The notes below the pieces were generated by a model that was not told the DNA's origin, did not search any database, and was given only the letters and a program-made list of their open reading frames with translations. From Closterium sp. NIES-65 (taxonomy: Eukaryota > Streptophyta > Zygnematophyceae > Desmidiales > Closteriaceae), in contig CANXME010000866.1 in assembly GCA_948144175.1 (NCBI GenBank), positions 1-64,000 of the forward strand: a stretch of DNA of 64,000 nucleotides, read 5' to 3'. The stretch's first letter is position 1; each line of letters begins with the position of its first letter. Of this stretch, positions 27,278-64,000 are shown one piece after another. The position numbers and the translations under genes were made by a program.

Positions 27278-27430
27278 AAGAGGATTCTTTGAATGATTCA
27301 CCTGGGTACAAGGCGGGGCAATATATAGGCTCGACACAAAGGCAGTAACCCTGGTGTTACTAGAAAGTTCCGTGGGTCGCGAAGCGTCCCGAAAGGGTCC
27401 TTCTCGACTGCTACTGAATGATCTCGTATT
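27278..27430 (-). repeat. Second, more diverged Gypsy LTR-like copy
   Basis: AGGATTCTTTGAATGATT, GGGTACAAGG and GGCTCGACACAAAGG align loosely with the LTR copy immediately to its left, so two related LTR pieces stand head-to-tail. It passes straight into Gypsy pol sequence at about 27450. Confidence 0.55.
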
Positions 27431-34086: not shown

Positions 34087-34106
34087 CACTCCCCCTCAGC
34101 CTGCCG
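34087..34106 (-). promoter_or_regulatory. Polypurine tract (A5)
   Basis: The plus-strand pyrimidine stretch ACTCCCCCTCAGCC is the complement of the polypurine tract seen before the 3' LTR in A1 and A3. Confidence 0.85.
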
Positions 34107-34128
34107 GCTGCATCCCCATCATTCCATA

Positions 34129-38709: not shown

Positions 38710-38740
38710 AGCTACCTATAACGAGGATCACTATAACGCA

Positions 38741-38752
38741 GCTCTGATACCA
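38741..38752 (-). promoter_or_regulatory. Primer binding site (A5)
   Basis: GCTCTGATACCA on the plus strand, the complement of TGGTATCAGAGC, three bases inside the 5' LTR. Confidence 0.93.
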
Positions 38753-38755
38753 GCT

Positions 38756-39849: not shown

Positions 39850-39854
39850 CTTGG

Positions 39855-42361: not shown

Positions 42362-43455
42362 TGTTGGTGTAAGGGCCTAATAAACTCAAGTTATTAAGAC
42401 TGTATCAAACTTAAAACCTCTCCTCGGGGTCATCTCCAAGGGTCCTTGGGTGCCTGGTACAAGACCAACCCCGATCCTCGGGTCCGAGTTTGTAGAGAGA
42501 GGGATCAAGAATGACTTAAAAAAAATAGCAAGAGTGACTTGAACGTCGCGCAGCGTATCGTGCAGACCATCGACCGGATTCAGCTGAGAATTTCCTATAT
42601 CGAAGCTCACTCCAAGAGCTTTAAAATAAGCCAAGTTGCCTCGCGAAAAGTTCTGCCATTACGAAGTTATGGCTCGGACAGCGTTTGCATAGCGTTGGAG
42701 TGCTAGTGTACTAGGTTTGACTCGGGTAGCATTCCGCCGTCGCATCGCGTAGAAACGAAATTTCAGGAAGGGAGGAATTCGCTTGAATCAAATTGACTAT
42801 ATTCAGGTACAAAGAGAGAAGGAATATATAGTTCTAGCTAGCAAGGAACTTGGGAATAAACCTGGGAACAACTAGGGATGATCCCAAAGAATTCCAAGCA
42901 ATAGAACCAACCTGGCTGGATAAAACAGCTGGTGGAAGGTTGATAAACAACCTCTGGTTCTGTTTTTCCAACCGGGGAAAACAACAACCAGGTTCAGGTC
43001 CTAAAAAACAGAACCCGATTTGTCTTTGCCCAACCAGCCAAATGCTGGTTCCACTGGTTTCCCCTGGCCCTGTAGCAAGCAGATACAGACAAACAACATC
43101 CAACCTTCACCTAAATTGTACCCCTATAGTGCCTGCCCTACTACACTATAGTCAACTAAACAAAACAGTACAATTTTGAGTTGGATAGAACTGAATCTGC
43201 ACAATCAATTCAACCGAACCGCAAAGCTTCCATCTTGGGTTCCTTTCCGAGCTTGTCCTTTCTGCTTCTAGTGTTCATAGCGTGTACAATGTTGTGCCGA
43301 AGCGCATAATGCGCGACCACCTGCAAATGCTTCAAGCGAAAATTGCGAAAGAAAATAAACACACGAACATTCCGTTCACACCCAAATGGATTCGCACACG
43401 CATACTCAGACAAACAGACGGCAGGATGTCGTGCAATGTGAATTTGCACCCAACA
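42362..43455 (-). repeat. Copia-A4 5' LTR
   Basis: 1,094-bp minus-strand LTR. It differs from the A4 3' LTR at many sites, consistent with age, and its right flank is gag sequence of another Copia lineage. Confidence 0.92.
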
Positions 43456-44600
43456 TTCTTTGCTGGCTTCCCACCTCCGCATCCTCTGCAGCCAGGCTGG
43501 CCACGCTGTCCCGGTCTAACACTTTGCTTAGTCGGGGCGGGATAGTTCACATGCGACAGGAGCTCTGTATCGCCTCATCCCGCTCGGCCTCGTGCATCGC
43601 CTCGTCCCGCAGGATGAACGAAATTAAGGAGTCTTCGTTTAGCACCGCACGCGTGCTCAGCACCACTGACAGCCGCTTCAGCAGGTTGTAGCTGCCCGGG
43701 AGCCCCTTTAGGACGTGCGTTGTACGATGCAGTGGAGTACTGCACGCTGGCAATCCTCATAGTGACGAGAAGTCGTTAAGCCCATTCGTTATTTCCTACT
43801 CGCCCATCCGCATATGCGTCATCTGCTCCTCAACCTTGCCGATGTACAGGTCGTCTGTGCCCTGGTACGTCAATTCGATGAAGTGCCACGCTTGGTGGTC
43901 GGCGTCCAGTCCCTGCATGGCTTCAAAACAATCAACACGCCCGGCAAGCAGCACCTTGAGATGACTGTAAAGGTCAGTAGCTGCACAACGCGGAACTCCA
44001 CAGACAGCTTGAGGTAGTTCTCTAACGGCGTCGCCACGGTGCCGGCGGCGAAGCCCATTAGCCCAGCCATCTCTAGCTGGTGCTCGGTAGCGTTGTTCAA
44101 AGTTAGGATGTCGGGCCGGCCGACCGGTCACAAAGATTGTATCAGGCGTAAACTTGAAGTAGCCGTAGCTCGGAGCTATCTTGCCCGCCATCACTTTGGT
44201 CGCCAGCAATCACCCTACTCTGACGTCCTCTGACGTCGCCCTGTAATGAGCCCGCAGTCGCCGACGACTACAGCCCTCGCGCCTGAACGCCGCCGATTTC
44301 ATCGACGTGAATCACACCTTGCTGCCTCGACATGCCTCCCGCACTACTGCCGACTTGGTCACAGGCATTGACACCCACGTAGATGCCGCCTTTGATGTTT
44401 ACCGGTCGAAGAGAGGCAGGTCGATAAGGGTTCTCCGTCGCCCACACGGCGTGGATGCTAGCCTCGACGACCGCCCAGGGGAGGTTCCCGTAGTCGCGAG
44501 CCTCATTGCGTCTCCTCGCATCTTCCAGCCGTGCCTCCAGGTTGTCCATCACCCCTACGTCACCTTTGGTGCCTCCCCAGACCCCACTCACTCACCACTC
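43456..44600 (-). pseudogene. Gag remnant of a different Copia lineage
   Basis: Minus-strand frames read, from right to left, an N-terminal part (starting near 44591), then FEAMQGLDADHQAWHFIELT and a MAGLMGFAAGTV-like stretch. A segment follows with VLKGLPGSYNLLKRLSVVLS and LISFILRDEAMHEAE, then NYPAPTKQ and a Gly/Arg-rich tail. The LKGLP.SY motif followed by L...I..EE/DEA is characteristic of Copia gag proteins. It is not similar to the Copia-A gag. Only gag is present and it is broken in several places. Pol is missing because the A4 element starts here. Identification is by motif only. Confidence 0.6.
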
Positions 44601-44673
44601 TCTGCTCCTCACCCCGCAATACCCACTGACACTAGGTTTTGGCATTTGATGGCCTACCATCCATAACGTGGCC

Positions 44674-44700
44674 TACCGTAATCACCCGGACATACCACCC
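44674..44700 (+). repeat. Left terminal inverted repeat
   Basis: 27-bp perfect match to the complement of 45417-45443. The similarity stops on the inner side at 44701 and does not extend outside 44674, as expected for a terminal repeat. Confidence 0.85.
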
Positions 44701-44879
44701 GCGGAAATTGAACACCCCCTGGGTGGCTTGTGCGGGGTGGGTGTTATAGCGGACCTCGTTTCTACTATACCCCTCTTTTGGGCCGATCCGGTATAAGACC
44801 CGGGGGGAAGGGGGGGGGGGGTGTTATGTATGGGAATATTTGCTGATTTGGCCTAAATCTGCGGTCCTCGCTGTGAGAT

Positions 44880-45125
44880 TTGGTGCTGGTTTTCGTGGTC
44901 GATGCGGTTGCTGCGATATCTGCTGTTGCGGCTCGCGATTTGCTGCAGGTGCTTCCGATTTGCTGCTCTTGCTGCGAGATCTGCCGATACGGCGAGATTT
45001 GCTGTTGCGATCTGCTGGTGGCGCTGCGAGATCTACTGCTGGTGTTCGGATCTGTTGCCGCTCCTCGCGATCTAGTGCTGCAACTCGCGATTTGCTGCTG
45101 CTGCTCGCGATTTGCTGTGACTGCA
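44880..45125 (+). repeat. Degenerate tandem repeat inside the MITE candidate
   Basis: About ten imperfect iterations of a unit like GCTCGCGATTTGCTGCTG spaced roughly 20-30 bp apart. Such repeats are common inside non-autonomous transposons. The 170-codon open frame (44840-45352) over it is low in complexity and probably not a gene. Confidence 0.6.
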
Positions 45126-45416
45126 TGAATCCTCGTCGAGCGACGGGGGGTGTGTTTTCGACCAATCAGGGCATGACAGAAGGCCTGTTGGAGCTTGCAA
45201 TATGGCAGCTTCCACTCGAGGCTAACGAAAAAGCCTCATCCTCGGTTTTGCGCACCCAACCAACAATCTACCACTGCAGCAAGCATGTACATTTTGTTCC
45301 CAAGCGTTTTTCCTTTAAAACAAATATACATTATGTCAAGACCCGGGGGTAATGTAGCTTTTTACCATGACAAGACCCCCTCCCCCTTTTTTTGATGTAG
45401 TTATCATAGCACCCTA

Positions 45417-45443
45417 GGGTGGTATGTCCGGGTGATTACGGTA
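45417..45443 (-). repeat. Right terminal inverted repeat
   Basis: Reverse complement of 44674-44700, ending GATTACGGTA. Confidence 0.85.
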
Positions 45444-45907
45444 CTGGTATTTGAGGAGCCAAAGGGGCTCTTCCTCATTGCAAAAGTACACAAGTTTGAA
45501 GCCAACCGAAAATGAGCATCAATGCTCAATTCTCCCAATCATTACAGTACGAACGCAAACCCATTCGACAGGCATCTCCCCTCTTCAACAATCATACCAC
45601 TGAATGAAACCCTAGTCATGCACTTCCACCCAAATGCTTCTATATACTTCTTCTGATTCCAGAAAAGCACAAAGCCACCAATTTGTTACCCGCACATCCT
45701 ACAATACCTTACCATACCGGATGTAATGAGTGGAGTCGACTCAAAAACCAAAAGCTTCTATTTCTTCCGACTCCATTGTTTCACCTTGCCACAGAGCGCC
45801 ACCTTGTTACCGGCACGCCCTAAAGTACCGTAGGTATTCGTCACAACCTGGGCCAGAACCGCTTTGCCAGCAGATTCACTGGGTACGCTCTGCTCCAACT
45901 CATACTT
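45444..45907. other. Unassigned sequence, possible 3' flank of the spliced gene candidate
   Basis: No transposon or coding motif was recognised. If the minus-strand gene candidate at 45908-46387 is real, this would hold its 3' untranslated region. A small hairpin (GAGGAGCC...GGCTCTTCCTC) sits near 45452-45476. Confidence 0.4.
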
Positions 45908-46387
45908 CTAGCTGTAGCGCTTGCGGCTTGCAGCCTCGGGGCTTGTGATGTTCACAAAAGCCAACGTTGTAGCGGGAGTTCCTGAGCAGCTTGCTGCGAA
46001 ATCATACACTGGTGAATCTCCTCCCTTGAGGTTAAAAAGCAGTACCTTAGCGTGCGCGGTGTAGGATGATGAAGAGTACCTGTCAATAGGGGGAAGCAGA
46101 GACACTCATTAGAGAGTAAATTGCCAGTTCAAACGCTTGCAGACTCAGAGGAACAAAGTGGTTGTTCATGCGGACGTCTAGTAATTGCGAGGAATCGGAA
46201 CTTGCAAGAATCTTAAAACTCATTGTGACTCCACAACGCTCATGTCAGAGCAGTCAGTGAAATGATCAAGTAAACGAGGGGGCAGCGGCGTACCTCACTA
46301 GCCTGTAGAACATTTTTCCGCTAGCTCCTTTGTTGCCGGTTACTTTCCCGTTGACCTTGGCAGGACGCAGTCTCACTGAATATTGGA
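45908..46387 (-). CDS. Candidate spliced gene fragment, unknown product
   Basis: Two minus-strand blocks fit an intron model: an internal exon at 46294-46387 and a terminal exon at 45908-46079 ending in TAG, joined across a 214-base intron (46080-46293). The donor is AG|GTACGC, the acceptor is TTGACAG|G, and the phase is consistent (codon split two plus one). The upstream exon is preceded by a long pyrimidine tract ending TTCCTAG, a good acceptor, so earlier exons should lie to the right, but none could be fixed. The joined peptide has YSVRLRPAKVNGK, KMFYRLVR, then YSSSSYTAHAKVLLFNLKGG and a C-terminal Lys/Arg-rich end. No known family was recognised. It could be a host gene fragment; a chance arrangement is possible. 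Confidence 0.4.
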
Positions 46388-48160
46388 CTAGGAACGGGAA
46401 CAATAGGAGTCGGGAAGACAAAAAAGGTGAATGGTTGTGATCTGATTCATTTATAGTCGACTCGGTCACTTCTATAAGAGGATAATTCTGTCACTATTAT
46501 CATGAACGGCAATGCAAAGGGTAGGAAAGGAGGACTCTTTTGGAAAGGAGAGTGATATATCTCAACTGCAGCGAACACTTCAGCTCCAGCAAACTCTTCA
46601 GGGTGTAGCACGTGTTCCTAGCAAGAACTTCATTTGCAACCAACATCATCAATCTACGAGCTGCACGGTTGAATAATCAGAAAGACATTCGCGTACTTGC
46701 AATCAGTTCATTCTATGTTGGCCATGTTCGAAAGTTCTGATGGCTAACACACTTACACACTACTTTTTCCTTCCAAACCAGAGGCTTGGCCTGAGAAGTG
46801 ATAGAAGCCGCAGAAGCGGAAGAATCGGCAGAAGGACCGCCGAGATGAGAAAAGAGCGGCGGGAGCAATGATGTGGCCGACGCGCCGTAGGCAGTGCAGA
46901 CGGCCGCACCTGCAGGAAAACAGGCTGACAGACAAGCCAGCAGGCAGACAGACCTGACGGAAAGTGCCTGTTGGATGACCGAACTAACAATCAGTCAGTG
47001 ACAGCACAAGGAGTCGGCCTCCAATGCGATATTGAAGCCTGCGGCATATCATCCGCCCACTGGTACTCTGAAATTTCATAACAAAAACTTACAGAGCAGC
47101 AGGCGGCAGAGGAGAGATGAAAGTGCTCGCTGCATGACGCTGATCTTAAAACCTTCGACTAGGCCGTTCCGGCGGAACTGCCAGTTTTTGGGAAGTGATG
47201 GGAAGTCAGTGGCACATTGGTGGTGGCTCAAAGAGGCAATTTATGTGATATTCTAGGCTGGGAGTATTGATATTCAATGAAAATTGTGTTTGATCTAAGT
47301 AAAGAAATGGGTCTGATTGACCTAACCTAAACATTCCCCTTAATCTGTTCACGCTGTAACAAGTTCAGGCTGCAAACCTTGTGAAATGCACAACTTCTGG
47401 AACAAGGCTGTCGATTCCAGGGCAAACGCCCTTAATGCCCAACAAGCTGAGGCTGAATTTTAGTGGCGCCGCGATTGATATGGACTAATTTCCGGGATTT
47501 TCCTGATCACTAAGGGTGGCGTCGTGCCTCACTTAACTCGTGTCATGTGGGGATTTATTCCCCAGCCCTTCATTTCTCTCTTGCCCGCTGATTCCCATTT
47601 TGCCCATCGCTCTCGCCCCTCCACGATAAAGATACTTGACTAAGTGGGTGAAGGTGCACAGCATTTTGATTGGCTAGAAAGATTAGGAAGCGGGGATTGT
47701 AGTTAATTTTCACCATCAAGATGTATAAATACATGTATTTGAGTGTGAGGAGCTATAAAACTTTTGAAATTTACAGGTTACTTGTGTCCAAAGCGGATCC
47801 GGCTCGAGTAATATCGGGTTAACGAGCGACGCACTGGACCAAGATGCGGGATAATTACCCCGAAATGGCACCACTACCGCCATTGATCAGCTTGCGCCTG
47901 GTCCGTACACCTAACGACCGAAAATATCAAGGGGTAACCCTTCCACTGATCTTGCGTTTCAAAATTATCCTGCACGTTTTCGACTGTTTGAGTTAGACAC
48001 TTACATGATTGGGGCTATGAATGACGCCTAATGCTCGAAGTTTAAAAACTCATCATGCGAATCTGAGCCAAATAACTACTCGTGTGAATGTTATTTTCCT
48101 ATTGCAAAATCCATAGCGCCACTACTCTCTTCGGGGGTCTGGAACAGACACTTGCTAAAA
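46388..48160. other. Largely featureless intergenic stretch
   Basis: No transposon domains, long frames or RNA genes were recognised. A minus-strand block near 46500-46660 reads as an open stretch beginning RLMMLVANEVLARN that might be a further exon, but no good splice sites tie it to the candidate gene. A TATAAATA sequence near 47722 could be a promoter but has no evident gene. Confidence 0.4.
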
Positions 48161-48195
48161 TTTAATGACGCTCCACACAACTCTCGGTCAAAGAT

Positions 48196-48395
48196 GTAGA
48201 AAGGGGTGCATACCAACGTATACATACCGAAAGCAACATTTAGAATTGCGGACAAGACACATGAGACACCTGAACTCTGGATCGGGACTAGGCGAACAAT
48301 CCAAAAAGGTATGTGATGATATTTTGGCTTGTCCAACTACGCCTGAACCTTGGTTCGGGACTAGGCAAACCGTCCAAAAAAGAATGGGCGGACAT
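48196..48395. repeat. Imperfect tandem duplication, unit about 72 bp
   Basis: The segments around 48270-48308 (TGAACTCTGGATCGGGACTA...) and 48342-48382 (TGAACCTTGGTTCGGGACTA...) are alike, with CCAAAAA and following bases also shared, spacing about 72 bp. It gives repeat structure to chance frames on both strands. Confidence 0.6.
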
Positions 48396-48883
48396 GGTTT
48401 TGGAAGTTGTACACTCGATAAGTTACACCGTGAACAGACCCAGCGGTTCCAGAAGTTGTGCACTGAACGTCCAAAGCGAAAGAGTGTTTACGATGGCGAC
48501 AAAAAAACTTTTCTGCGTATTCTACTGTACACCCTCTTTCTCGCTACACTAGCAACGGGATTCACTAGCTACAGTGAAACTTTTCCTTGGATGTATTCGG
48601 AAAGTTTCATTTAACCGTCTCTAGGAGGTCAGTGATTCGGAATTTCGTTACCCTGGGTACCATACCGAGCCATATCAAACGTTCAAACGACCGTCTTCTA
48701 AAGTAACTAACCTCGTCAAACCGTACGGCTGCAAAAGTCTACTATAACGCGTCCTCTGGCGCATTCAGCCACAGGGCCCATATAGCCAATGACCATGTAG
48801 CGCAAAACAGGGTGTATATGGGTGAAGCACGCAACAAAGTTTGCGAAGAAGACCGTGAACGAAGAGCAACTGAACCTAATATA

Positions 48884-48975
48884 GGGTCAAAGTTCCAAGG
48901 GAAAGAGTTACTGTAACAGGTCAAACTTCCGAAAAAACGCGTTAGAGGGGTCAGACTTCCAAGGGAAATCGTTTG
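48884..48975. repeat. Three-copy short tandem repeat
   Basis: GGTCAAAGTTCC, GGTCAAACTTCC and GGTCAGACTTCC start at about 48884, 48919 and 48949, each followed by an A-rich or AAGGGAAA stretch. Its role is unknown; it lies just left of the Copia-B7 LTR. Confidence 0.55.
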
Positions 48976-49018
48976 GATTCAGGATAGGTACTAGCGTGGG
49001 GTTCTTTAACCACTAAAT

Positions 49019-49670
49019 TGTTAAAACGATGGGTGGATCATAATGGCTATTTTGGATAGGAATGCATTCCCTTTATATGCTTTTGAGGTGAGTGTACTGA
49101 GGATAGAATATCCAAGCGATAGGAAGAAGGGATTCGATAACAACAAGAACAATCTCAATTGATAACCGGTGTTTTATTTAACGTTTAGCCCCCTATTATG
49201 TCTTGTTTTCTCCCTGCCTACTAAATTATAAAACTGCATTATGTGTCGGAAACAATTGATTTTAGGCGCCTCTGTCATGTCAAACACCAAGACACAAGCG
49301 AAGCGAAACATATCGAAGCATCGGCGAGTCAACCCTCGAAGGTTGAAGCAACTGCTGGAGGTTACGCGAAAGTCAAAGGTCAGCGACCTTTGACCTGACA
49401 AGTACAGCGCGACAGCAAGGACACACAACTGACTCGCTACAGAGCAGTTGCCCAAGTCGTCACTGTATCGAAAAGCAATAGTAAACTGTAAAGCAGTTAT
49501 AGCTGTATCTTTCATATTCCTTGTATCTCTTTGCTTTAATCAATCTACTTTGCCCTCACATACTAGCGCAAGGTGGTTCAACTGTTTCATTAAAAGCTTC
49601 CGCTATTACAACAAGTCCTACCTAGAATTCAGTCCTGCAAAAGATCCGAAGGGCTTTTCTCAGCCCAACA
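49019..49670 (+). repeat. Probable 5' LTR of Copia-B7
   Basis: Starts TGTTAAAACG and ends CCCAACA, so the TGTT/AACA ends mirror each other as in the other LTRs. A TATA-like TTTATATGC lies at about 49072. The tRNA-Met-like site TGGTATGAGAG follows with no gap. The left boundary is a best guess because the partner LTR is not in the window; the right boundary is firmer. Confidence 0.5.
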
Positions 49671-49679
49671 TGGTATGAG
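49671..49679 (+). promoter_or_regulatory. Primer binding site of Copia-B7, interrupted by Copia-A6
   Basis: TGGTATGAG at 49671-49679 continues as AGTATC at 55112 once A6 and one ATGAG copy are taken into account. It matches the initiator tRNA-Met site apart from minor differences. A6 therefore integrated inside this site. Confidence 0.65.
49675..49679. repeat. Target-site duplication ATGAG, left copy (A6)
   Basis: ATGAG left of A6 is repeated at 55112-55116 right of it. Confidence 0.93.
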
Positions 49680-50739
49680 TATTGGGTGCAAATTCACATT
49701 GCACGACATCCTGCCGTCTGCTTGTACGAGTATGCGTGTGCGAATATGTATGCGTGTGAGTGGAATGTTCGTATGTTTGTTTGCTTTCGCAATTTTCGCT
49801 TGAAACATTTGCAAGTACTCGCGCAATGTGCGCTTCGGCACAACATTGTACGCGCTATGAAAAGTGCAAGCAGAAAGGACGAGCTCGCAAAGGAAACCAA
49901 GATGGAAGCTTTGCCGTTTGGTTGAACTGATTATGCTGATTCAGTTCTATCCAACTCAAAATTGTACTGTTTTGTTTGGTTGACTATAGTGTAGCAAGAC
50001 AGGCACTATAGGGGTACAATTTAGGTGAAGGTTGGATGTTGTTTCTCTGTATCTGCATGCTACAGGGCCAGGGGAAACCAGCGGAACCAGCATTTGGCTG
50101 GTTGGGCAAAGACAAATCAGGTTCTGTTTTTAGGACCTGCACCTGGTTGTTGTTTTCTCAGGTTGGAAAAACAGAACCAGAGGTTGTTTACCAACCTACC
50201 ACCTGCTGTTTTGTCCAACCAGGCTGGTTCTGTTGCTTGGAATTATTTGGGATCATCCCTGGTTGTTCCAAGGTTGATTCCCAAGGTCCTTGCTAGCTAG
50301 AGCTATTTATTACTTTCTTGTTTGTACCTGAATATAGTCAATTTGATTCAAGAGAATTCCTCCCTTCCTGGAATTTCATTTCTACGCGGTGCGATGGCGG
50401 AATGCTACCCAAGTCAACGCTAGTACGCTAGCACTCCAACGCTAGGCAAACGCTGTCCGAGCCATAAGTTCGTAATGGCAGAACTTTTCGCGAGGCAACT
50501 TGGCTTATTTTAAAGCTCTTGGAGCAAGCTTCGATATAGGAAATCCTCAGCTTAATCCGATCGACGGTCTGCACGATACGCTGCGCAGCGTTCAAGGTAC
50601 GCTTGATACAAACTCGGACCTGAGGATAGGGGCTGGTCTTGTACCAGGCACCCAAGGACCCTTGGAGGTGACCCCGAGGAGAGGTTTTAAGTTTGATAAA
50701 GTCTTAATAACTTGAGTTTGTTAGGCCGTTACACCAACA
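49680..50739 (+). repeat. Copia-A6 5' LTR
   Basis: 1,060 bp with the family ends (TATTGGG start, CCAACA end) and many scattered differences from the young LTRs. Confidence 0.93.
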
Positions 50740-50742
50740 AGC

Positions 50743-50754
50743 TGGTATCAGAGC
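50743..50754 (+). promoter_or_regulatory. Primer binding site (A6)
   Basis: TGGTATCAGAGC, unchanged from the young copies. Confidence 0.9.
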
Positions 50755-50785
50755 TGCGTTATAGTGATCCTTGATATAGGTAGCT

Positions 50786-53700
50786 ATGGCGGGCAACACC
50801 TCGACGGGAGCTGGTGAATCTTCAGCCCAAGATCGTAGCGGCAGCCAAGATTCTGATGTTTCAGCGCCAAGGGGAGCGCGAACAAGCCAGGGCTCGCTGG
50901 TTAAGGAGGTGCTGAAGTACTTCACCGTCGAAAAGTTCAATGGTGAGGGCTATGATGATTGGGCCTGGAAAATGCAACAATATTTCCGTCATATTGGATT
51001 GCTGAAACTAATGATTGGGGAGGAGCCTAGACCGAGTGACCCCGCACTGCAGGAAGATTGGGACGAGTGCTCCTCGGCCGGCTACTATTTGATGTCGCAG
51101 AGTTTGGAGCTGAACCAGCGTCAACAAGTAATGCACCTGCTACCGGAGGTTGAGTGCACTCCGAAGGCGTGGACCGTGTTGAAGGAGGTGCACTCCCCGA
51201 CCTCTGTCGTTGCAACGTTGATGCTGGAGAGGGAGCTGTCCGCGTTGCGCCTGAGCGAGGGAGAGCCGGTGCAACCTGTCCTGGACAAGATCCGCGACCT
51301 CTACGCAAAGTTGGCGACCGCGGGAATCACCTACCCGGAGCAGACCAAATGTTTGAAGATGCTCTCGCTGCTGCCGGAATCGTGGCTTCAATTCACGAGC
51401 GGATTGAAGCTGCAGCACAACCAGAGCTCATGGACACTCTAGTGGGTGCGGACAAAGATTCTGGAGGAGGACTTCCGTCGCCGCCAACTGAGGGGTGGAG
51501 ACGACGGCAGTAGCGGCTACGGGATGCAAGGGAGCCGACGTGGCAGAAGACGTGGCTTCGGTGGTGCTGGACGCGGTGCAAAGAAGGACGACGACTCCAA
51601 CGACCAACAAGGAGGTACCGGTTGGGGTCGCGGTGCGAAATCTGGACGTTGGGGCAAGTCGGGTGCTGGTGGCAAAATGAAAGGGAGTTGCTGGTATTGT
51701 GAGAAGGAGGGGCACCCCTGGTTTCTGTGCTATAAGAAACCCGATGGATGGACCCCTCAGAATCGTCACCAGGATGGCGGCGCGCGGAGGAATCAGAAAA
51801 ACGGCGCGAGCATGGTCGCCGATTCGTCCGACAACAACCCGAAGAGCAACGGCGGTGCGGAAAAGAAGAAGGAGCGCACCGCGGGCCAGTTCTTCCATAT
51901 TGGAGAGCAAGGGGAGCAAGAAAACGCCTCTGCCAAGGTTGGAGCGGAGCTGCACCCCCTGGATTATTGGGTGTTGGACACGGGTGCTGCTTGGACGATG
52001 ATGCCGCGCAAGGACCTGCTGGACCACGTACAAGCTGCACCAATCAACGAGATGTGCTCCGCCTCTGGACACGCGCTGAAGGTGGCTGGTGCGGGACGAG
52101 CTGCGTTTAAGGGAGCGGATGGCAAGCCGGTGGTGCTGCACAACGTTGTTCTCGTTCCTGAACTCAAGGCCAACCTCATCTCCCTCCGTAAGCTTGGCAA
52201 GGCTGGGGTGAGCACTAGCACGGATGGGGCACGCACTTACAAGGGGCAGCTGGGCAATCGGGTGCTTTGGGATCTGTACGAGAGCACAGACGTGTAGAGA
52301 TCTATGTGGCAGCTGCCGGCGTTGGCGTGGCATGGTGGGGGGCAGGCTGGAGAGGGGTCTGCATCCCAAGGGGAGTGCAATGCCGTTGGATGGGTTGGTG
52401 TGAAAGTGTCGGCCAGATCTGGGGAGACGGATTGGGCAACGGCACACCGACGCTTGGGGCATGTGGCAATGCCTTTGTTGAAGAAATTGGAGAAAGATGG
52501 AGCCGTTAAGGGTCTGAAGCTAAACGGACAGCCACCTGATGTGAATTAAGAAATCTGTTTGCTCTCAAAGGTTACCCGTTTTCCCTTCCATAGTGTGGCT
52601 GGCAGGAGCAAGAAGCCGTTGGAGCTGGTCCACATGGACTTGGTGGGGCCACTGCCGGTTGAGGGACACAAGGGGGAGCGGTACATTTTGACCATAGTGG
52701 ATGATTTGAGCAGGCTTATGTGGACATATCCGCTGAAGCAGAAAGACCATGCCGCCTCTACGATACGGGAAGATTGGCTGCCATTCGTGGAGAAGCAAGC
52801 GGAGTGTGTGGTGAAGCGGATTTGGACAGATCGGGGTGGTGAGTTCCTTGGAGCTGAGATGACGGCCTGGCTCAAGAAGTAGGGCATCCAGAGGGAGCTG
52901 ACCACGGCTTACACCCCACAGTCCAACTGTGTAGCAGAACGGGCGAACCGGACAATTCTGGAGACACCTAGGGCGCTGCTCATAGAACCTTCCAAGGGTG
53001 TGTTGTTTGACAGCACGGATATGAAGTTTGTTGAAGGCATGATGTATGGGAGCTGGGAGAAACAGCCGGAGGCCAGGGTGTCCCAGCAGATGGAGCAGAT
53101 CACCATGCAGCTGGACCTGACTCCTACTGTGTGGGAGGAGGGAGAGGAGGTAGCTGCAGAGGGTGGTGATGGAGAGAAGGTGCAGGAGGAACCTGCTGGT
53201 GGAGGTGATGGTGTGGAGACTAGCGGTAGCACTAGTGGAGCTGCTGGATTCGAGGGAGGAAAGCAGCAAAAGGGAAAAACTATGAAGTCGAAGGGTGTAG
53301 TTATGAGGAGATGGGAGACACCTGTCTCCAGGCCAGGACGTACCCGTATGGCTACTAAGAAGCTGACTGCAGCAGCTGATGTAGCAGAGCAGCAGCTTGG
53401 GACAGAGGAGGCATTGCTGATTCTACCGCATGGCTCTGATCCAGATGAGGAGGATGAGCCTGCCTACTGTTTTCTTGCCCCTGCACCAGAGGAACCAGCT
53501 AGCATGGAGGAGGCATTAGCTGGACCAGATAGGGAGAAGTGGCTGGTTTCCAGGGATGCTGAGTACCAGAGCCTGCTAGAGAATGGGACAAGGGAGCTGG
53601 TGGTGCTGCCTGGGGGGAAGAAAGCCGTACAGAGCAAGTGGGTGCTAAGGATCAAGACCGATGACAACGGACAGGACACCATCTACAAGAGTAGGCTGGT

Positions 53701-54307
53701 GGCTAAGGGGTTTATGCAGAAGGAGAAGCGGGACTTCAAGGAGATCTTTGCTCCCACTGCCAAACCCCCTACCCTCCGTGTCTTGTTGGCAGATGCTTTC
53801 GTTAGTGGGAAATTCATCATTCAGATGGATATATCTACCGCATTCCTCAATGGGATTTTAGAGGAAGATGTGTACATGTCGCAGCCGCCTGGGTATGAGA
53901 ATGGTACGGGCAGGGTGTGCAAGCTGAGAAAGTCCATCTACGGCTTGAAGCAAGCGCCGCGCTGCGGGTACCAGAAGTTGGCAGCTGTTTTAGAGGAGAT
54001 GGGATTCAGGACCAGCAGCTGTGATGAGAGCCTCTTTCTCAAGGGGGAGGGGGAGAAGCTGGTGCTGTTTCTGGTCTATGTGGACGACATTCTTCTCTTT
54101 AGCAGCAGCATGAAGGAGATCCAGAAGGTGCAGCAGCAGCTGATGGAGAACTTCAAGTGGCAGTGGCTGCGTAAGGAGGTGAAGAGGGGGACGGTGAATC
54201 CGATCTACATCAAGACTCACCAGCAGCCAGCAGACTTCCTCACCAAGAGGCTTGCAGATGAGACTCATTGGCGTTGTATGCGCATGCGTGGAATAAGCAT
54301 GGACTAG
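50786..54307 (+). pseudogene. Copia-A6 gag-pol remains
   Basis: Gag from 50786 (GYDDWAWKM), zinc knuckle CWYCEKEGH near 51690, protease DTGAAWTM near 51975, integrase zinc-binding region near 52440 and core (TPQSN, ERANRT) near 52910, reverse transcriptase QMDISTAFLNG near 53820 and YVDD near 54080, and the THQQPADFLTK end near 54220 are all recognisable in the family order. Parts of pol are missing compared with A1. It is a fossil with about half a dozen breaks. Confidence 0.9.
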
Positions 54308-54349
54308 GATGGAATGATGAGGATGCAGCCTGCAGGCTGAGGGAGAGTG

Positions 54350-55111
54350 TGTTGGGTGCAAATTCACATTTCACGACATCCTGCCGTCTGTTTGTACGAG
54401 TATGCGTGTGCGAATGTGTTTGCGGAACCAGAATTTGGCTGGTTGGGCAAAGACAAAACAGGTTGTGTTTTTAGGACCTGCACCTGGTTGTTGTTTTCCC
54501 AGGTTGGAAAAACAGAACCAGAGGTTGTTTACCAACCTACGACCTGCTGTTTTTTCCAGCCAGGTTGGTTCTGTTGCTTGGAATTATTTGGGATCATCCC
54601 TATTTGTTCCCAGGTTGATTCCCAAGGTCCATGCTAGCTTGAGCGATATATTCATTCTCTGTTTGTACCTGAATATAGTCAATTTGATTCAAGCAAATTC
54701 CTCCCTTCCTAGAATTTTGTTTGTACGCGGTGCGTCGGCGGAATGCTACCCGAGTCAATGCTAGTACGCTAGCACTCCAACACTAGGCAAACGCTGTCCG
54801 AGCCATAACTTCGTAACGGCAGAACTTTTCGCGATGCAATTTGGCTTATTTTAAATCTCTTGGAGTGAGCTTCGATATAGGAAATTCTCAGCTTAATCCG
54901 ATCGACGGTCTGCACGATAATATGCACAACATTCAAGGTACTCTTGGTGTTTTGACTAAGTCCCTCTTGATCCGTCTCTCTACATACGGACCCGAGGATA
55001 GGGGCTGGTCTTGTACCAGGCACCCAAGGACCTATGGAGGTGACCCCAAGGAGAGGTTTTATGTTCGATAAAGTCTTAATAGCTTGAGTTTATTAGGCCC
55101 TTACACCAACA
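54350..55111 (+). repeat. Copia-A6 3' LTR
   Basis: Family LTR start TGTTGGG and end CCAACA, 762 bp, shorter than its 5' partner. Followed by the ATGAG duplication at 55112-55116. Confidence 0.92.
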
Positions 55112-58100
55112 ATGAGAGTATCAGGGCGAACTCATCTACTATCAAGACACCTACAACATCAGAAGACATAGCTACCCAAAAGGAAAGAATTTCCTCTAAT
55201 GGTTCTCCCGGCACTACTCCTACTCCTACTCCACCTCCTGCTTCTGGCCTACAGACAGGGGAGGGTACGGCAACAAGACCAAAGGCAACGTCTACCGAAA
55301 CTCCTGCGAATCAACCTGCAGGCTTCGACAAGAGCATGGTGGAGAAGTTCTTCTCCTTCATGTCCTTCTACGAACAACACCAGCAATCGGCACCTGCGCA
55401 GTCAAACTACAGCAACAACAACAACGATGTGACTCCCATGAGTCTTGATGGCTCATCATACGCGCGCGGAAATCAACAGCAGCAGCCTTTACCTGGACAA
55501 GAGAAGACATTGGACGCACTACAAGTTCAGACGCAATTTGCACACGTTCTGAAGTTGTCAAGACCCTTTGACGGGAAGGAATTCTTTATCTGGTCATTTG
55601 AGTTCGAGCTGATGATGGAAGGCGCGCAAAATCTTTGCTTCTTGGATGGATCCCTGCCATACCCAACAAATAGCACACAGTACGACAAGCAGCAGTACAT
55701 TTATCCGTCAATGATGGCGTACACAATCCTACTGAGCAACATCACTCCGAATCAGCAGCAGAATATACGGACATACCGGAGACACGGCAACTCCGCCGAG
55801 CTCGCATACAGCCACTTGAAGAATCTGTATCACGCAACAGACAGCATCAACCAGAGTCGGTTAATGGCACAACTGACAACAGTTGAAATGAAACCAGGCG
55901 AAAGGGGGATGGCGTATATCAGTCGCTGTCGCGAGTTGCGCGACAAGCTTCTTCGATGCGGAGGAACAATATCCGAAGACGCCTTCGTGACAGTCATCAT
56001 CGGCGGCCTTGGTCCTCAATGGCGCTCCACAAAAGCCATTCTTCGAGCCCACGGAAGAATTTCCGAAGCAGCACTTTGCGCCGAGATTCACGCCAAACAG
56101 CAAAACATGGACCTGCAAGAAGAACGACTCAAGAAGAAAACGTCAGCACCGGAATTCGTTTTTCACACTCAATGGCGCTACAACAACAATCACAACCGGC
56201 ATCAACCAAAGCCCGCACCTCCGTTCTATCATATCTGCAAGACGTCAGGGCATCCTCGCACACACTGCCCCAACCGACAGCAATCAACATAGACACAACG
56301 GCAACTTCGACCTTCGAGCAGTCAAGTCGCCTCAACACAAGCGAATCTCACCACTCAAGTACAAGTCTCAACGACATCGACAGGACAACTTGCACAAGGA
56401 GCAAGAAACATTGTCAGCTGCATGGCAAGATTGACCGACTCCTGCATCACTGAGTCATCGCCACATTACTCACCGGAAGAACAGCTCGACAACAGTACGC
56501 CCAGCCGCGAGTCACTTCAACCGAACCCGACGTATGCAGCTATCGCCCAAATTGAGCCGTCCGGAAAAGACACTTGGTTCTTGGACAGTTGCTGCGGGCA
56601 GCATATATGCTCTTCAGGACGCTTTGTGCAGCAAGAGTACCAACTCGAACGCGAAGTAGTTATCACCGTCGCCAATAACCATAACCTGCGCACACAACGA
56701 CAAGGCATGGTTCAACTTCAGTCACGGGAGACAAACGTTATACTGCAGATGTCGAAGGTTTTAATAGCAGAAGGCCTCGGCTACAACTTACTCAGCGTTA
56801 GTCAGCTGATGGCAAAAGGCATCCACCTGGAGGCAGACAGCACCACCCAAGAATTCAAGTTGTACCACGGGAGAGGAGGCCTTTACATTGGAAAGGCAAT
56901 CCTGAAGAACAATGTCTTTGTCCTCGATTTCGTTCCCGACCTCGGCACGGCCGACAGCAACGGAATTGTGACCTTCACCTCCTGGATGCACTCCAGATCT
57001 TGAATCAGACTTCAGCCCCGGCAGTTTCTGGCATTCTCACACGATACCTGAGGCAGAACGAACAAGAGTGTTAGCAACGATTCAACAATCAGCAGCAGCA
57101 GAGACAACACCAGCAGCAGCAGGGACAACATCAGCAGCAGCAGAGACAACATTGGCAGCAGCAGAGACAGCACCAGCAGCAGTAGAAACAACACCGGCAA
57201 CGGGAACAACAATGACGCCAATCGCTGGTCCTTCAACGACACCAATCTTCGTCGACGATTCGCCACCAACACCCGCGCAGCAGCTAGCTCCGACTCAACA
57301 AGAAGTCTATTGAAGCACCAACTTCACCGCCGGCTTCTACTCCAACTCCGAAATGTATCAGCGCTCACCTGGACATTGTGCCAGCAAAGAAATCTGGCAT
57401 GCACGGATGGGACACCCAAGCAATACAACGTTAAACAATACAATAAGAGCAGGAGTGTTCGACAAAGATTCGCTCCTACTACACGACGGGAGAGAACTCC
57501 AACGAGCAAGAGGAACATGCTTCACCTGCCCTGAAGCCGACTTACCGCATCTGCCATTCGTCCTTCACCACAACCCAAGTGCAAGCTTACGCACCACTCG
57601 AAAAGGTGTACAGCGACATCTTATACAATCGCGTACCAGGACAAGGAGCCTACAATTACACCATCACCTTCATCGACGCCGCCACACGATACGTCTGGCA
57701 CCTGAATCTCCCGAGCCGCGACATGGCTTTCGAAGCCTTCTATGTCTGGCTTCTAGCAGCAGAACGAGAATCGGGGGTGAAGCTAAAGAGTTTTCAGTTA
57801 GATGGAGGCGGAGAATACACCTCACAACGCTTCAAGGACTACCTGGCAGAGAAGGGAATCAAGAAGCTCATCTCCCTTTCTTACGCCCATCAACAGCAGG
57901 GTGTAGCAGAAAGGATGAACAGAACTCTCCAGAACACCATGCGCAAGCTGCTACATGGCATGCGGCTACCCAACCACCAGTGGCCCGAAGCAATGGACCA
58001 TGCCGTGATGCTGCACAACATGCTCTCGTCATCATCGCTCCCGAACAATGCATCACCGTATCTGCTGTGGACAGGAAAACTTGGCAGCACAAAAATGTTG

Positions 58101-59541
58101 CGCGTCTGCAGCTGCATGGTACAGTACTGACCCCCAACTGCACGAGCCGGCCGATTCTCCCAACGCGCACAGTGGGGACTACACCTGGGCATCGAAAAGA
58201 ATTACAACGCATGGAAAATTTTCGACGTTCAGACAAAGGAAACAGTGGCAGCACGTGATGTCATTTTTTACGAACGACTCACCCTCGACTCCTACCAAGC
58301 CAACTTGGCAGAACAGTGAGACCTCACCAGTGGATTTCGTGGAGACCGAGCCTTCGCTTCGGCAGCCGACGAAGCTGACTTTGACGAGCAAAATGTGGAT
58401 GGAGCCTCGGAAGAATCCGGACCACTCCCATACTGCTGGATGGATGTACCGATGGATGACGACAATCCTTGGGAAAGCGTCAACGCCGAAGTCTTCTACA
58501 ACCTCGCCGACGAGGGTTACGTTATACCTGCACAATTCAACACCGACGAAGCAAAACGCGTAGGACCCAATTTCATACCTGATCCAGAAACGGGAGACAA
58601 AGCAGTCTATCCCGAGGATACAAGACTCCCCCGCTACACACAGAGTGGACTCCAGATACTCGGACTCGTCACCGCAGTCCACGGCACGGCGATTCCTAAG
58701 GAGCCTGCCATAGTTCAGCAGACTCTGGGGGGGGAGCATAAGGAAAAATGGCGCGAAGCCATGGACAGGGAGCTGAAAGCACTCGAGGAACGCAGCACCT
58801 GGAAAGTTGTTCTCATCGGAGTGGCACGAAACAAGACTATACTCACCAGGAAGTGGGTCTTCCGTGTGAAAACAAAGGCAGACAGTACCATCGACAAGTT
58901 CAAAGCACGCTGGGTAGTACGCGGCTTCGACCAGGAACATGGACGCGACTTCACCGAGACATTCGCCCCGGTCAGCCGATACACATCACTACGGATTCTC
59001 CTCGCGATCGCCGCCATGAAGAAGAAGAAGCCAAATCGACATCACCAACGCGTTTCTTTACGCACCCGTCGACGCAGAGATTTTCGTCGAGCTACCACAT
59101 GGCTCTAGCACGGACTCCAACCACGTCTGTGAGCTGTTGAAGTCCTTGTACGGGATCAAACAGGCCCCGAGACTGTGGCAGCAGTATCTTCACGCCCGAC
59201 TCATTCGCATCGGATTCCACCAACTACCGCACGAGTAGGGCATGTACCGGCTCACAAAGGGAACCGACTACATTCTACTCATCGTCTACGTAGACGATCT
59301 TCTCTACATCGGCCGACCGACGGTGTTACTACCTGGTTTGAAGGGGAGCTGCAGAAGGATCTCACTCTCACAATCTCATCTACCATCACGCAATACCTCG
59401 GCCTCAACATCGAAGAAAAGGAAAACGCGATCTATCTCAGCGCCGCGAAGTACGCGGACACCATCGCCAAACGCTTCGCACTCACACCGACTACCATCTC
59501 CACACCATACCGCTACACGGCAGGAAATTACAAGGAGGGAT
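55112..59541 (+). pseudogene. Copia-B7 gag-pol remains, a second Copia lineage
   Basis: A Copia polyprotein unrelated in gag to Copia-A. Gag runs from about 55130 to 56290: a Pro/Thr/Gln-rich N-terminus, then an FDGKEFFIWSFEFELMMEG domain and a knuckle-like SGHPRTHCP. Protease-like sequence with WFLDSCCG follows near 56575, the pre-integrase WHARMGHPS near 57395, and the integrase core with FIDAATRYVW, QLDGGGEYTS and QQQGVAERMNRT at about 57600-57925. Reverse transcriptase is at about 58740-59320 with KWVFRVKTK, RDFTETFAPV, YGIKQAPRLW and YVDDLLYI. It ends abruptly at 59541, before RNase H is complete. Protease-integrase-RT order marks Ty1/Copia. It is a fossil with several breaks. Its leader and primer site are separated from it by A6. 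Confidence 0.87.
57083..57205 (+). repeat. CAG-rich tandem repeat in Copia-B7
   Basis: About five units of a 24-bp motif like CAGCAGCAGAGACAACAC lie between the protease and pre-integrase regions of B7. Such low-complexity spacers expand by slippage; it is not a separate gene. Confidence 0.75.
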
Positions 59542-60572
59542 ATATGGAAGAACTGGCCCACGGTGCGCTCCTTCTTTTTCGCACCCCCATTGCTCTTCGG
59601 GTTGTTATCGGACGAATCGGCGACCATACTCGCGCCGTTTTTCTGGTTCCTCCGCACGCCGCCATCCTAGTGACGATTATGGGGGGTCCATCCATCAGGT
59701 TTCTTATAGCACAAAAACCAGGGGTGCCCCTCCTTCTCACAATACCAGCAACTCCCTTTCATTTTGCCACCAGCACCCGACTTGCCCCCACGTCCAGATT
59801 TCGCACCGCGACCCCAACCGGTACCTCCTTGTTGGTCGTTGGAGTCGTCGTCCTTCTTTGCACCGCGTCCAGCACCACCGAAGCCACCTCCTCCCCCACG
59901 TCGGCTCCTTTGCATCCCGTAGCCGCTGCTGCCGTTGTCTCCACCCCTCAGTTGGCGGCAACGGAAGTCCTTCTCCCGAATCTTTGTCCGCACCCACTCG
60001 AGTGACCACGAGCTCTGGTTCTGCGGCAGGCTCAATCCGCTCGTAAATTAAGCCCCGACTCCGGCAGCAGCGAGAGCATCTTCAAACACTTGCTCTGCTC
60101 CGGGTAGGTGATTCCCGCGGTCGCCAACTTCGCGTAGAGGTCGCGCATCTTGTCCAGGACAGGTTGCACCGGCTCTACCTTGCTCAGGCGCAACGCGGAC
60201 AGCTCCCTCTCCAGCATCAACATTGCAACAACGGAGGTCAGGGCGTGCAGCTCCTTCAATACGGTCCACGCCTTGGGACGGCACTCAACCTCCGGTAGCA
60301 GGTGCATGACGTAGTGACGCTGGTTCAGCTCCATACTCTGCGACATCAAATAGTAGCCAGCCGAGGATCGCTCGTCCCAATCTTCTTGCAGCGCGGGGTC
60401 ACTCGATCTAGGCTCCTCCCAATCATAAGTTTCAGAAAACCGATATGACGGAAATACAGTTGCATTTTCCAGTCCCAATCATCATAGCCCTCACCATTGA
60501 ACTTCTCGACGGTGAAATTCTTCAGCACCTCCTTAACCAGCGAGCCCTGGTTTGTTCAGCTCCCTTTGGAGG
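59542..60572 (-). pseudogene. Copia-A gag fragment, minus strand (left arm of inverted repeat)
   Basis: Minus-strand sequence covers Copia-A gag from just after its N-terminal end (near 60572) to the region upstream of the protease (near 59542), including the zinc knuckle near 59740 and the Gly/Arg-rich segment. It has no LTR or primer site at either end. Its left edge is fused to B7 reverse-transcriptase/RNase H sequence and its inner edge faces the gag of A8. A broken fossil piece with a few breaks. Confidence 0.88.
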
Positions 60573-60605
60573 GGCTGGGTGGACGCCTCAGTGAACTGGC
60601 AACGC
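60573..60605. other. Short spacer between the opposed gag fragments
   Basis: About 33 bp that do not match Copia-A sequence and have no recognised origin; possibly filler DNA from break repair. Confidence 0.5.
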
Positions 60606-62224
60606 CTGCGTTATAGTGATACTCGATATAGGTAGCTATGGCGGGGAACACCTCCGCGGTAGCTGGTGAATCTTCAGCCCAAGATCGTAGCGGCAGCCAT
60701 GATTCTGGAGTTTTTACGCCACGGGGAGCGCGAACAAGCCAGGGCTCGCTGATCAAGGAGGTGCTGAAAAACTTCACCGTCGAGAAGTTAAATGGTGAGG
60801 GCTATGATGATTGGGCCTGAAAAATGCAACTTTATTTCCGTCAGATCGGTTTGCTGAAACTAATGATTGGGGAGGAGCCTAGACCGAGTGACCCCGCCCT
60901 TCAGGAAGATTGGGACTAGCGCGCCTCGGCTGGCTACTACTTGATGTCGCAGAGTTTGGAGCTGAACCAGCGTCACCACGTCATGCACCTGCTGCCGGAG
61001 GTTGAGTGCGGTCCGAAGGCGTGGTCGGAGTTGATGGAGCTGCACGCCCCGACCTCCGTTGTTGCAACATTGATGCTGGAGAGGGAGCTGTCCGCGTTGC
61101 GCCTGAGCGAGGGAGAGCCGGTACAACCTGTCTTGGACAAATTGCGCGACCTCTACGCGAAGTTGGCGACCGCGGGAATCATCTACCCGGAGCAGACCAA
61201 GTGCCTGAAGATGCTCTCGCTGCTGCCGAAATCGTGGCTTCAATTCACGAGCGGATTGAGCCTGCCGCAGAACCTGAGCTTGTGGACGCTCGAGTGGGTG
61301 CGGACGAAGATTCTGGAGGAGGACTTCCGTCGCCGCCAACTGAAGGGTGGAGACGACGGCAGCAGCGGCTACGGAATGCAAGGGAGCCGATGTAGCAAAG
61401 GACGTGGCTTTGGTGGTGCTGGACGCGGTGCAAAGAAAGAGGACGACTCCAACGACCAACAAGGAGGTACCGGTTGGGGTCGCGGTGCGAAATCTGGACG
61501 TGGGGGCAAGTCGGGTGCTGGTGGCAAAATGAAAGGGAGTTGCTGGTATTGTGAGAAGGAAGGGCACCCCTGGTTTTTGTGCTATAAGAAACCCGATGGA
61601 TGGACCCCCCAGAATCGTCACCAGGATGGCGGCGCGCGGAGGAACCAGAAAAAAGGCGCCAACATGGTCGCTGATTCGTCCGACAACAACCCGAAGGGCA
61701 ATGGTGGTGTGGAAAAGAAGAAGGAGCGCACCGCGGGTCAATTCTTCCATATGGGAGACAAGGGGGAGCAAGGAGACGCATCTGCTAAGGCTGGAGCAGA
61801 GCTGCACCCCCTGGAATATTGGGTGTTGGACACAGGCGCTGCTTGGACAATGACGCCGCGCAAGGACCTGCTGGACGACGTACGCGCTGCACCGATTAAT
61901 GAGGTGTGCTCTGCCTCTCGACACATGTTGAAGGTGGCTGGTGCGGGACGAGCTGCGTTTAAGGGAGCGGATGGCAAGCCGGTGGTGCTGCACGACGTTC
62001 TCCTCGTCCCCGACCTGAAGGCCAACCTTATCTCCCTCTGTAAGCTTGGCAAGGCTGGGGTGAACACCAACACGGATGGGGCTCGCAATTATAAGGGGAA
62101 GCTGGGCAATCGGGTGCTTTGGGATCTCCACGAGAGCAAGGACGTGTACAGATCTATGTGGCAGCTGCCGGCGCTGGCGTGGCACGGTGGGGGGCAGGCT
62201 GGAGAGGGGTCTGCATCCCAGGGG
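60606..62224 (+). pseudogene. Copia-A8 5' fragment: leader, gag, protease (right arm of inverted repeat)
   Basis: Begins in the family leader just after where the primer site would be (GCGTTATAGTGAT) and runs through the gag start at 60638, zinc knuckle near 61540, and protease DTGAAWTM near 61835, to the A9 insertion at 62225. No LTR or primer site remains on its left. Broken, with about two breaks besides the insertion. If its other half survives, it lies right of A9, outside the window. Confidence 0.9.
62220..62224. repeat. Presumed target-site AGGGG, left copy (A9)
   Basis: The five bases before the A9 5' LTR. The right copy is outside the window, so the duplication cannot be confirmed. 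Confidence 0.6.
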
Positions 62225-63317
62225 TGTTGGGTGCAAATTCACATTGCACGACATCCTGCCGTCTGTTTGTACGAGTATGCGTGTGCGAATGCATTTGCGT
62301 GTGAATGGTATGTTTGTGTGTTTGTTTGCTTTCGCAATTTTCGCTTGAAGCATTTGCAGGTACTCGCAAAATGTGCGCTTCGGCATAACATTGTACGCGC
62401 TATGAACAGTACAAGCAGAAAGGACGAGCTCGCAAAGGAACCCAAGATGGAAGCTTTGCGGTTCAACTTACTTGATTGCGCAGATTCAGTTCTATCCAAC
62501 TCGAAATTGTACTGTTTTGTTTGGTTGACTATAGTGTAGCAGGGCAGGCACTATAGGGGTACAATTTAGGTGAAGGTTGGATGTTGTTTGTCTGTATCTG
62601 CATGCTACAGGGTCAGGGGAAACCAGCGGAACCAGCATTTGGCTGGTTGGGCAAAGACAAAACAGGTTCTGTTTTTAGGACCTGAACCTGGTTGTTGTTT
62701 TCCCAGGTTGGAAAAACAGAACCAGAGGTTGTTTACCAACCTACCACCTGCTGTTTTGTCCAGCCAGGTTGGTTCTGTTGCTTGGAATTATTTGGGATGA
62801 TCCCTGGTTGTTCCCAGGTTCATTCCCAAGGTCCTTGCTAGCTAGAGCTATTTATTCCTTCTCTGTTTGTACCTGAATATAGTGAAATTGATTCAAGCGA
62901 ATTCCTTCCTTGCTGGAATTTCTTTTCTACGCGGTGCGACGGCGGAATGCTACCCGAGTCAACGCTAGTACGCTAGCACTCCAACGCTAGGCTAACGCTG
63001 TCCGAGCCATAACTTCGTAATGGCAGAACTTTTCGCGAGGCAACTTGGCTTATTTTAAAGCTCTTAGAGTGAGCTTCAATATAGCAAATTCTCAGCTTAA
63101 TCCGGTCGACGGTCTGCACGATACGCTGCGCGACGTTCAAGGTACTCTTGCTGTTTTGACTAAGTCCCTCTTGATCCCTCTCTCTACAAACTCGGACCCG
63201 AGGATAGGGGCTGGTCTTGTACCAGGCACCCAAGGACCCTTGGAGGTGACCCCGAGGAGAGGTTTTAAGTGTGATAAAGTCTTAATAGCTTGAGTTTATT
63301 AGGCCCTTACACCAACA
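62225..63317 (+). repeat. Copia-A9 5' LTR
   Basis: 1,093 bp with TGTTGG and CCAACA ends; a few bases differ from A1. Confidence 0.96.
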
Positions 63318-63320
63318 AGC

Positions 63321-63332
63321 TGGTATCAGAGC
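63321..63332 (+). promoter_or_regulatory. Primer binding site (A9)
   Basis: TGGTATCAGAGC three bases after the LTR, as in the other copies. Confidence 0.92.
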
Positions 63333-63363
63333 TGCGTTATAGTGATCCTCGATATAGGTAGCT

Positions 63364-64000
63364 ATGGCGGGCAACACCTCGGCGGTAGCTGGTGAATCTT
63401 CAGCCCAAGATCGTAGCGGCAGCCATGATTCTGGTGTTTCTGCGCCAAGGGGAGCGCGAACAAGCCAGGGCTCGCTGATCAAGGAGGTGCTGAAAAACTT
63501 CACCGTCGAGAAGTTCAATGGTGAGGGCTATGATGATTGGGCCTGGAAAATGCAACTTTATTTCCGTCAAATCGGATTGCTGAAACTAATGATTGGGGAG
63601 GAGCCTAGACCGAGTGACCCCGCCCTTCAGGAAGATTGGGACGAGCGCGCCTCGGCTGGCTACTACTTGATGTCGCAGAGTTTGGAGCTGAACCAGCGTC
63701 ACCACGTCATGCACCTGCTGCCGGAGGTTGAGTGCGGTCCGAAGGCGTGGACGGTGTTGAAGGAGCTGCACGCCCCGACCTCCGTTGTTGCAACATTGAT
63801 GCTGGAGAGGGAGCTGTCCGCGTTGCGCCTGAGCGAGGGAGAGCCGGTGCAACCTGTCCTGGACAAATTGCGCGACCTCTACGCGAAGTTGGCGACCGCG
63901 GGAATCACCTACCCGGAGCAAACAAAGTGCTTGAAGATGCTCTCGCTGCTGCCGGAATCGTGGCTTCAATTTACGAGCGGATTGAGCCTGCCGCAGAACC
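63364..64000 (+). CDS. Copia-A9 gag-pol, N-terminal part (continues beyond window)
   Basis: The first 212 or so codons of the family polyprotein are open to the window edge. They carry the capsid-like gag region with GYDDWAWKMQLYF, the MSQSLELNQRHHVMHLLPE segment and the LPESWLQFTSGLSLPQN segment. The start is the same first ATG after the primer site used by A1, A3 and A5. Zinc knuckle, protease, integrase and reverse transcriptase would lie to the right of the window, so completeness cannot be judged. Confidence 0.9.
   Translation, partial: MAGNTSAVAGESSAQDRSGSHDSGVSAPRGARTSQGSLIKEVLKNFTVEKFNGEGYDDWAWKMQLYFRQIGLLKLMIGEEPRPSDPALQEDWDERASAGYYLMSQSLELNQRHHVMHLLPEVECGPKAWTVLKELHAPTSVVATLMLERELSALRLSEGEPVQPVLDKLRDLYAKLATAGITYPEQTKCLKMLSLLPESWLQFTSGLSLPQN

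Follow-up and report, generated by a model that had tools for sequence, protein, structure and literature searches.

Facing Copia-A gag remnants form an inverted repeat on one of two homologous contigs of Closterium sp. NIES-65

Facing gag remnants and their surroundings

Towards the right end of the 64,000-nt stretch of Closterium sp. NIES-65 DNA analysed here (the window), two gag fragments of the retrotransposon family Copia-A lie head-to-head. The left arm (59542-60569, minus strand) is a gag fragment with a broken frame, and contains stop codons in all three frames of its own strand. The right remnant (60606-62224, plus strand) comprises gag and the start of pol, with Pfam matches to Retrotran_gag_2 (PF14223, E 3.2e-15) and Pol_BBD in 60941-62224; the part that pairs with the left arm is 60724-61752. 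A BLAST comparison of the region with the window aligned 59542-60564 with 61752-60724 on opposite strands at 90.96% identity over 1,029 nt, with 4 gap openings, and an ungapped repeat finder recovered the arms as stacked inverted pairs (I1, I2, I3 and I5). Chance is ruled out for a 1-kb repeat at 91% identity. These data bear out the first-pass annotation, which had described head-to-head Copia-A gag arms of about 1 kb and proposed alignment as a check of their identity; at 91.0% over 1,029 nt the arms align well. The limits that it gave need some adjustment, as the homology of the left arm stops at 60569 rather than 60572, and the matching part of the right copy, present at 60724-61752, belongs to a copy that is longer as a whole. 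The spacing between the paired parts (60569 to 60724) is about 155 nt.

The left arm is 91.5-92.6% identical to six other Copia-A gag copies within the window (BLAST) and 98.5% identical to its counterpart on a second contig of the assembly (C1850). The right remnant matches the full copy at 4440-6058 at 97.2% over 1,619 nt, and the second contig at 98.4%. Assignment to Ty1/copia is supported by the gag domain, and by the paired LTRs and 5-bp target duplications present in the family. The copia gag domain, LTRs of the form TGTTGG...CCAACA, 5-bp target duplications and nested insertions are all shared with nested and deleted Ty1/copia remnants of plants, from which nothing essential separates the locus; there is just a chance orientation that gives a short-loop inverted repeat.

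Both arms lack an LTR on the inner side, as had been noted before. The left arm breaks off within gag, while the right remnant begins at the end of the primer-binding site. Its first bases are CTGCGTTATAG, which on the second contig and in a young copy come after a sequence that we take to be the primer-binding site, presumably of the tRNA-Met type, as in plants. On its right side the remnant is cut by a younger Copia-A (62225-64000, plus strand, running on to 68167), whose LTR extends from 62225 to about 63317 and is followed by the internal region, with a Retrotran_gag_2 match (PF14223, E 1.8e-17) at 63364-63999. The second contig is uninterrupted at the site of this insertion.

A transcript through the locus would, as first proposed, fold into about 1 kb of double-stranded RNA, which alignment and folding support in the form of an imperfect duplex. 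The alignment of the left arm with 60718-61752 comprises 1,035 columns (939 identical, 89 mismatched and 7 with gaps), in which identical runs of at least 21 nt measure 119, 39, 39, 32, 28, 26, 25 and 23 nt and provide 171 perfectly paired 21-mers and 147 perfectly paired 24-mers. The predicted folding energy of the central 461 nt of RNA is -286.3 kcal/mol, compared with a mean of -144.3 (sd 7.3) for shuffled sequences, none of 100 shuffles being as good.

The sequence immediately to the left of the left arm belongs to a different, older copia element, B7, in agreement with the earlier description. Its internal part (55112-59541, plus strand) has Pfam matches to Retrotran_gag_2, rve and RVT_2 in decayed remains of gag, integrase and reverse transcriptase, and is truncated within the last of these at the start of the left arm; this junction (59541/59542) is also found on the second contig. 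The 5' LTR region of B7 corresponds to 49244-49678. Just inside the end of this LTR a Copia-A is inserted (49680-55111, plus strand), flanked by the target duplication ATGAG (49675-49679 and 55112-55116); about 330 bp are missing from within its 3' LTR. A chimera of a Copia-A LTR and a B7 interior, which the contact between a Copia-A LTR end and B7 might suggest, was considered and rejected, as the Copia-A sits in B7 with the ATGAG duplication and the 5' LTR region of B7 lies beyond it. At 54155-54159 about 790 bp of the second contig are missing from the window, with 5 bp common at the junction. B7 had been put forward as the source of transcription through the inverted repeat. This proposal is weakened, and a B7 promoter is doubtful, because the 5.4-kb Copia-A separates the 5' LTR region of B7 from the locus. 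Among the LTRs mapped, the nearest upstream one in the correct direction is the 3' LTR of that same Copia-A.

A colinear homologue and the junction between the arms

The window is part of a 68-kb contig (C865) that ends at 68167, and its own assembly (874 Mb, 2,400 contigs) was searched with the left arm. Among the best 40 of 2,856 candidates scored, contig C1850 (390567-391594) ranked top at 98%, the next match being at 94%. The two contigs form a colinear chain in which window positions 1-3333 correspond to C1850:357672-361003 (98.7%), 10188-12012 to 360998-362824 (98.8%), 25733-32992 to 362820-370077 (97.8%), 39847-54159 to 370070-384449 (97.6%), 54155-60569 to 385236-391594 (97.85%) and 60606-62224 to 399522-401140 (98.4%), the last three blocks being in the same order and on the same strand. 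The window stretches that fall outside the chain before 40000 are Copia-A insertions absent from C1850 at those places. With the copy at 62225, five insertions in the window are missing at the colinear positions: 3333-10187 (e1), 12013-25732 (e2), 16603-23457 nested within it (e3), 32993-39849 (e4) and 62225-64000.

C1850 holds both gag copies in the same orientations as the window, with 7,927 bp (391595-399521) between the points equivalent to the junction. Beside the left copy are Copia-A LTR pieces in tandem on the minus strand (391722-392620 and 392618-393713). Beside the right copy an LTR end (399362 to about 399507, plus strand) is followed by the primer-binding site. The sequence between the copies contains further LTR pieces and, judging from its translations, decayed copia pol. 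In the window 36 bp of filler (60570-60605) stand in place of the 7,927 bp. The stretch 60582-60606, which is 24 filler bases and the next base, matches C1850:397916-397940 at 24 of 25 nt in the same orientation, within the segment missing from the window; the junction stretch scored 45 in local alignment, and when the segment was shuffled base by base 100 times the highest score on either strand was 34. Alignment to the missing segment identified no source for the remaining 12 nt (60570-60581). The 24/25 match therefore shows that the ancestor of the window contained the segment, and that the change is a deletion in the window's lineage.

The junction is found once. A pattern of 72 bp across it, with up to 3 mismatches permitted, occurred once in the 874-Mb genome; a 66-bp query in a DNA search of the genome matched itself alone; and in a third search no other place among the best 40 of 1,390 candidates scored covered more than 2 filler bases. 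An amplified hairpin element, which was also considered, is rejected on these grounds.

These data support a simple sequence of events. Two separate Copia-A insertions in opposite orientation very probably supplied the arms, which came face to face when the C865 lineage lost about 7.9 kb. The inner LTRs are very probably missing because the same deletion, lying between the two insertions, removed the LTR sequence of both. The break may have been sealed by end joining, leaving the filler, of which 24 bases would have been kept, or copied anew, from the segment that was lost. Filler copied from nearby is common at end-joining and deletion junctions in plants. The first-pass annotation had held that two ordinary insertions could not explain arms without inner LTRs; this argument fails, since C1850 keeps inner LTR sequence at both copies and the window is without the 7.9 kb between them.

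C865 and C1850 are probably two haplotypes of one region, because they are colinear and because other contig pairs exist in the same assembly: a pair carrying a Piwi gene is 97.8 and 98.3% identical over two overlapping stretches, a divergence like that of C865 and C1850, and matches to RNase III likewise fall on a contig pair. C1850 might instead be a diverged segmental duplicate, in which case the deletion would hold and its description as polymorphic would fall. As its own arrangement is complex, with two tandem LTR pieces next to the left copy, C1850 need not be the exact ancestor of the window's state.

Arm sublineages and rival origins

Comparison with the young full copies e1 (starting at 3333), e3 (16603) and e4 (32993) separates the two arms. 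The right arm is 96.7-97.0% identical to these copies and the left arm 92.9-93.1%, and, on these identities, the right arm groups with the young copies and the left arm lies on another branch. The arms of the window are 91.3% identical to each other, and their equivalents on C1850 91.1%. Among the 25 ungapped columns that differ between the contigs, 12 are paired only in the window, 10 only in C1850, and pairing is unchanged in 3. Homogenisation of the arms by gene conversion, suggested by the identical run of 119 nt, is rejected: the run is also present in C1850, and every one of seven further copies compared with the left arm, five from the window and two from C1850, shares with it an identical run of 75-122 nt (window copy e2 was aligned as well, its run length not being among the seven). 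The arms thus display no homogenisation and no clear gain of pairing, and they have not evolved as a pair.

The comparison with Mu killer of maize in the first-pass annotation implied that the repeat arose in place, by inverted duplication of a single gag copy through fold-back or template switching, a process that would yield the inverted geometry and the short loop directly. Such an origin is extremely unlikely, and is rejected, as the arms belong to different sublineages and both counterparts lie separately on C1850, each with LTR sequence. In favour of a false join of two Copia-A copies during assembly are the short 68-kb contig, which is dense in near-identical copies of the family and ends inside one, and a homologue without the junction. 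A fold-back read artefact is excluded because the arms differ by 9%. The filler, with 24 bases from the missing segment and one mismatch, is more in keeping with DNA repair than with a false overlap, and both flanks of the junction stay colinear with C1850. An assembly artefact is therefore improbable on balance; the position of the junction, about 7.6 kb from the end of the contig, leaves a misassembly a small residual chance.

The locus is accordingly a real inverted repeat of ordinary origin, made of rearranged retrotransposon remnants on one of two homologous contigs. The arms are very probably relics of two divergent insertions joined by the deletion of about 7.9 kb, and are very probably without a selected role. 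As decayed transposon sequence, the locus would become a source of double-stranded RNA only where read-through transcription chanced to pass through it.

Two Copia-A gag copies in comparable orientation occur elsewhere in the assembly. On contig C435 (81000-87500; locus L065) minus- and plus-strand copies face each other head-to-head with arms of 1,468 nt at 93.5% identity. Facing gag copies on opposite strands are shared with the present locus, although the loop is about 1.8 kb because a whole LTR remains between the arms. Contig C427 is identical to this pair over 3,155 nt. A small survey of gag loci, each spanning about 3-4 kb, took in 35 of them (L003-L008 and L016-L044), a non-random set of high-scoring arm matches that includes the right-copy locus of C1850 (L018); L001, L002, L014 and L015 were left out, as were the retrieved stretches of C1850 and C865. 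Matches longer than 100 nt in both orientations were found at 2 of the 35 loci (L033 and L034, on C435 and C427), which are mutually 100% identical and so represent one arrangement. Because of this selection, and because the genome searches scored the best candidates (40 of 2,856 and 40 of 1,390), the counts give no genome-wide rate. In the same assembly, rbcL, which sequence and structure matches suggest is of a green-plant type, is present in two or more copies per contig, in both orientations, on C40, C75, C97, C162, C824, C1848 and C2174; these copies may reflect chloroplast sequence that the assembly has concatenated, or plastid DNA located in the nucleus.

Copia-A activity and the silencer hypothesis

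All three full-length Copia-A copies tested have target duplications (GTTGG, CGCTG and CTTGG), and their LTR pairs are 99.8, 100 and 99.9% identical. When joined, the sequences on either side of e1 have C1850:360853-361152 as their sole match. For e4 the joined flanks align with the colinear C1850 sequence (369928-370227) at 98.0%; since e4 is itself nested in a Copia-A, they align equally well or marginally better with other copies of the family (up to 98.3%), and its empty site in C1850 is shown by the colinear chain. The sequences flanking e3 are part of e2 and have several copies as matches. The e2 copy, with e3 nested in it, is absent from C1850, where window positions 12012 and 25733 meet at 362820-362824, and e3 is missing because its host copy is absent. 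These features show that Copia-A was recently active and do not support effective silencing of the family, although the activity may have preceded or followed the deletion.

A rival reading of the locus is that of a natural hairpin silencer, in which read-through transcription would yield about 1 kb of double-stranded RNA, and from it small RNAs acting in trans against Copia-A, in the manner proposed for Mu killer. Several features are compatible with such a role. The arms are foldable and share many perfectly paired 21-mers, and arm 21-mers are also found exactly elsewhere in the window, outside 59001-63332 (369 of 1,008 for the left arm and 647 of 1,015 for the right). The genome contains 22 matches to Piwi domains and 26 to RNA-dependent RNA polymerase domains, and on each of two contigs it has a pair of RNase III domains with a spacing of about 3 kb (C1994:73710-77041 and C2079:1949946-1953436), candidate alleles of one Dicer-like gene. 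With these domains present, processing of a hairpin transcript would in principle be feasible. Against the proposal are arms that have stayed at 91% identity without homogenisation, the 12 sites paired only in the window barely exceeding the 10 paired only in C1850; a junction found once in the genome; the severing of the 5' LTR region of B7 by the 5.4-kb insertion; and the three Copia-A copies with LTRs of 99.8-100% identity on the same contig, which may have inserted before or after the deletion. Judged from these data, a silencing role is possible but unsupported, and we consider it very unlikely.

The resemblance to Mu killer lies in partial inverted copies of a transposon gene with the potential to form a hairpin RNA. 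In one account, Mu killer contains a portion of MuDR that has been duplicated and inverted, and its transcript forms a perfect 2.4-kb hairpin that gives rise to 26-nt siRNAs (PMC2563033). According to another, short antisense transcripts are present where silencing occurs, and read-through sense transcripts where it fails (PMC3440606). In contrast to Mu killer, which is known through its silencing of MuDR, the present locus is known from sequence alone. Inverted partial copies are present at both loci, but near-perfect arms derived from one element are not found here: the hairpin of Mu killer is perfect and stems from one inverted duplication, whereas identity between the present arms is 91%, and they trace back to two insertions belonging to different retrotransposon sublineages. 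Hairpin transgenes in plants are described in a further report as becoming methylated and silencing themselves, with mismatches preventing this (PMC9263138); for a hairpin with 9% mismatches the result cuts both ways.

It is very doubtful that the haplotype-specific deletion represents the one-step origin of a hairpin small-RNA locus directed against a recently active copia family, and thus a naturally segregating silencer. If it did, the deletion-free C1850 would serve as a built-in control. Whatever its activity, the locus provides a clean natural case in which one deletion makes a short-loop inverted repeat from two divergent insertions, and the assembly also contains the homologue that lacks the deletion. 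Should small RNAs from the locus occur in carriers of the deletion only, the origin of hairpin silencers would become directly testable.
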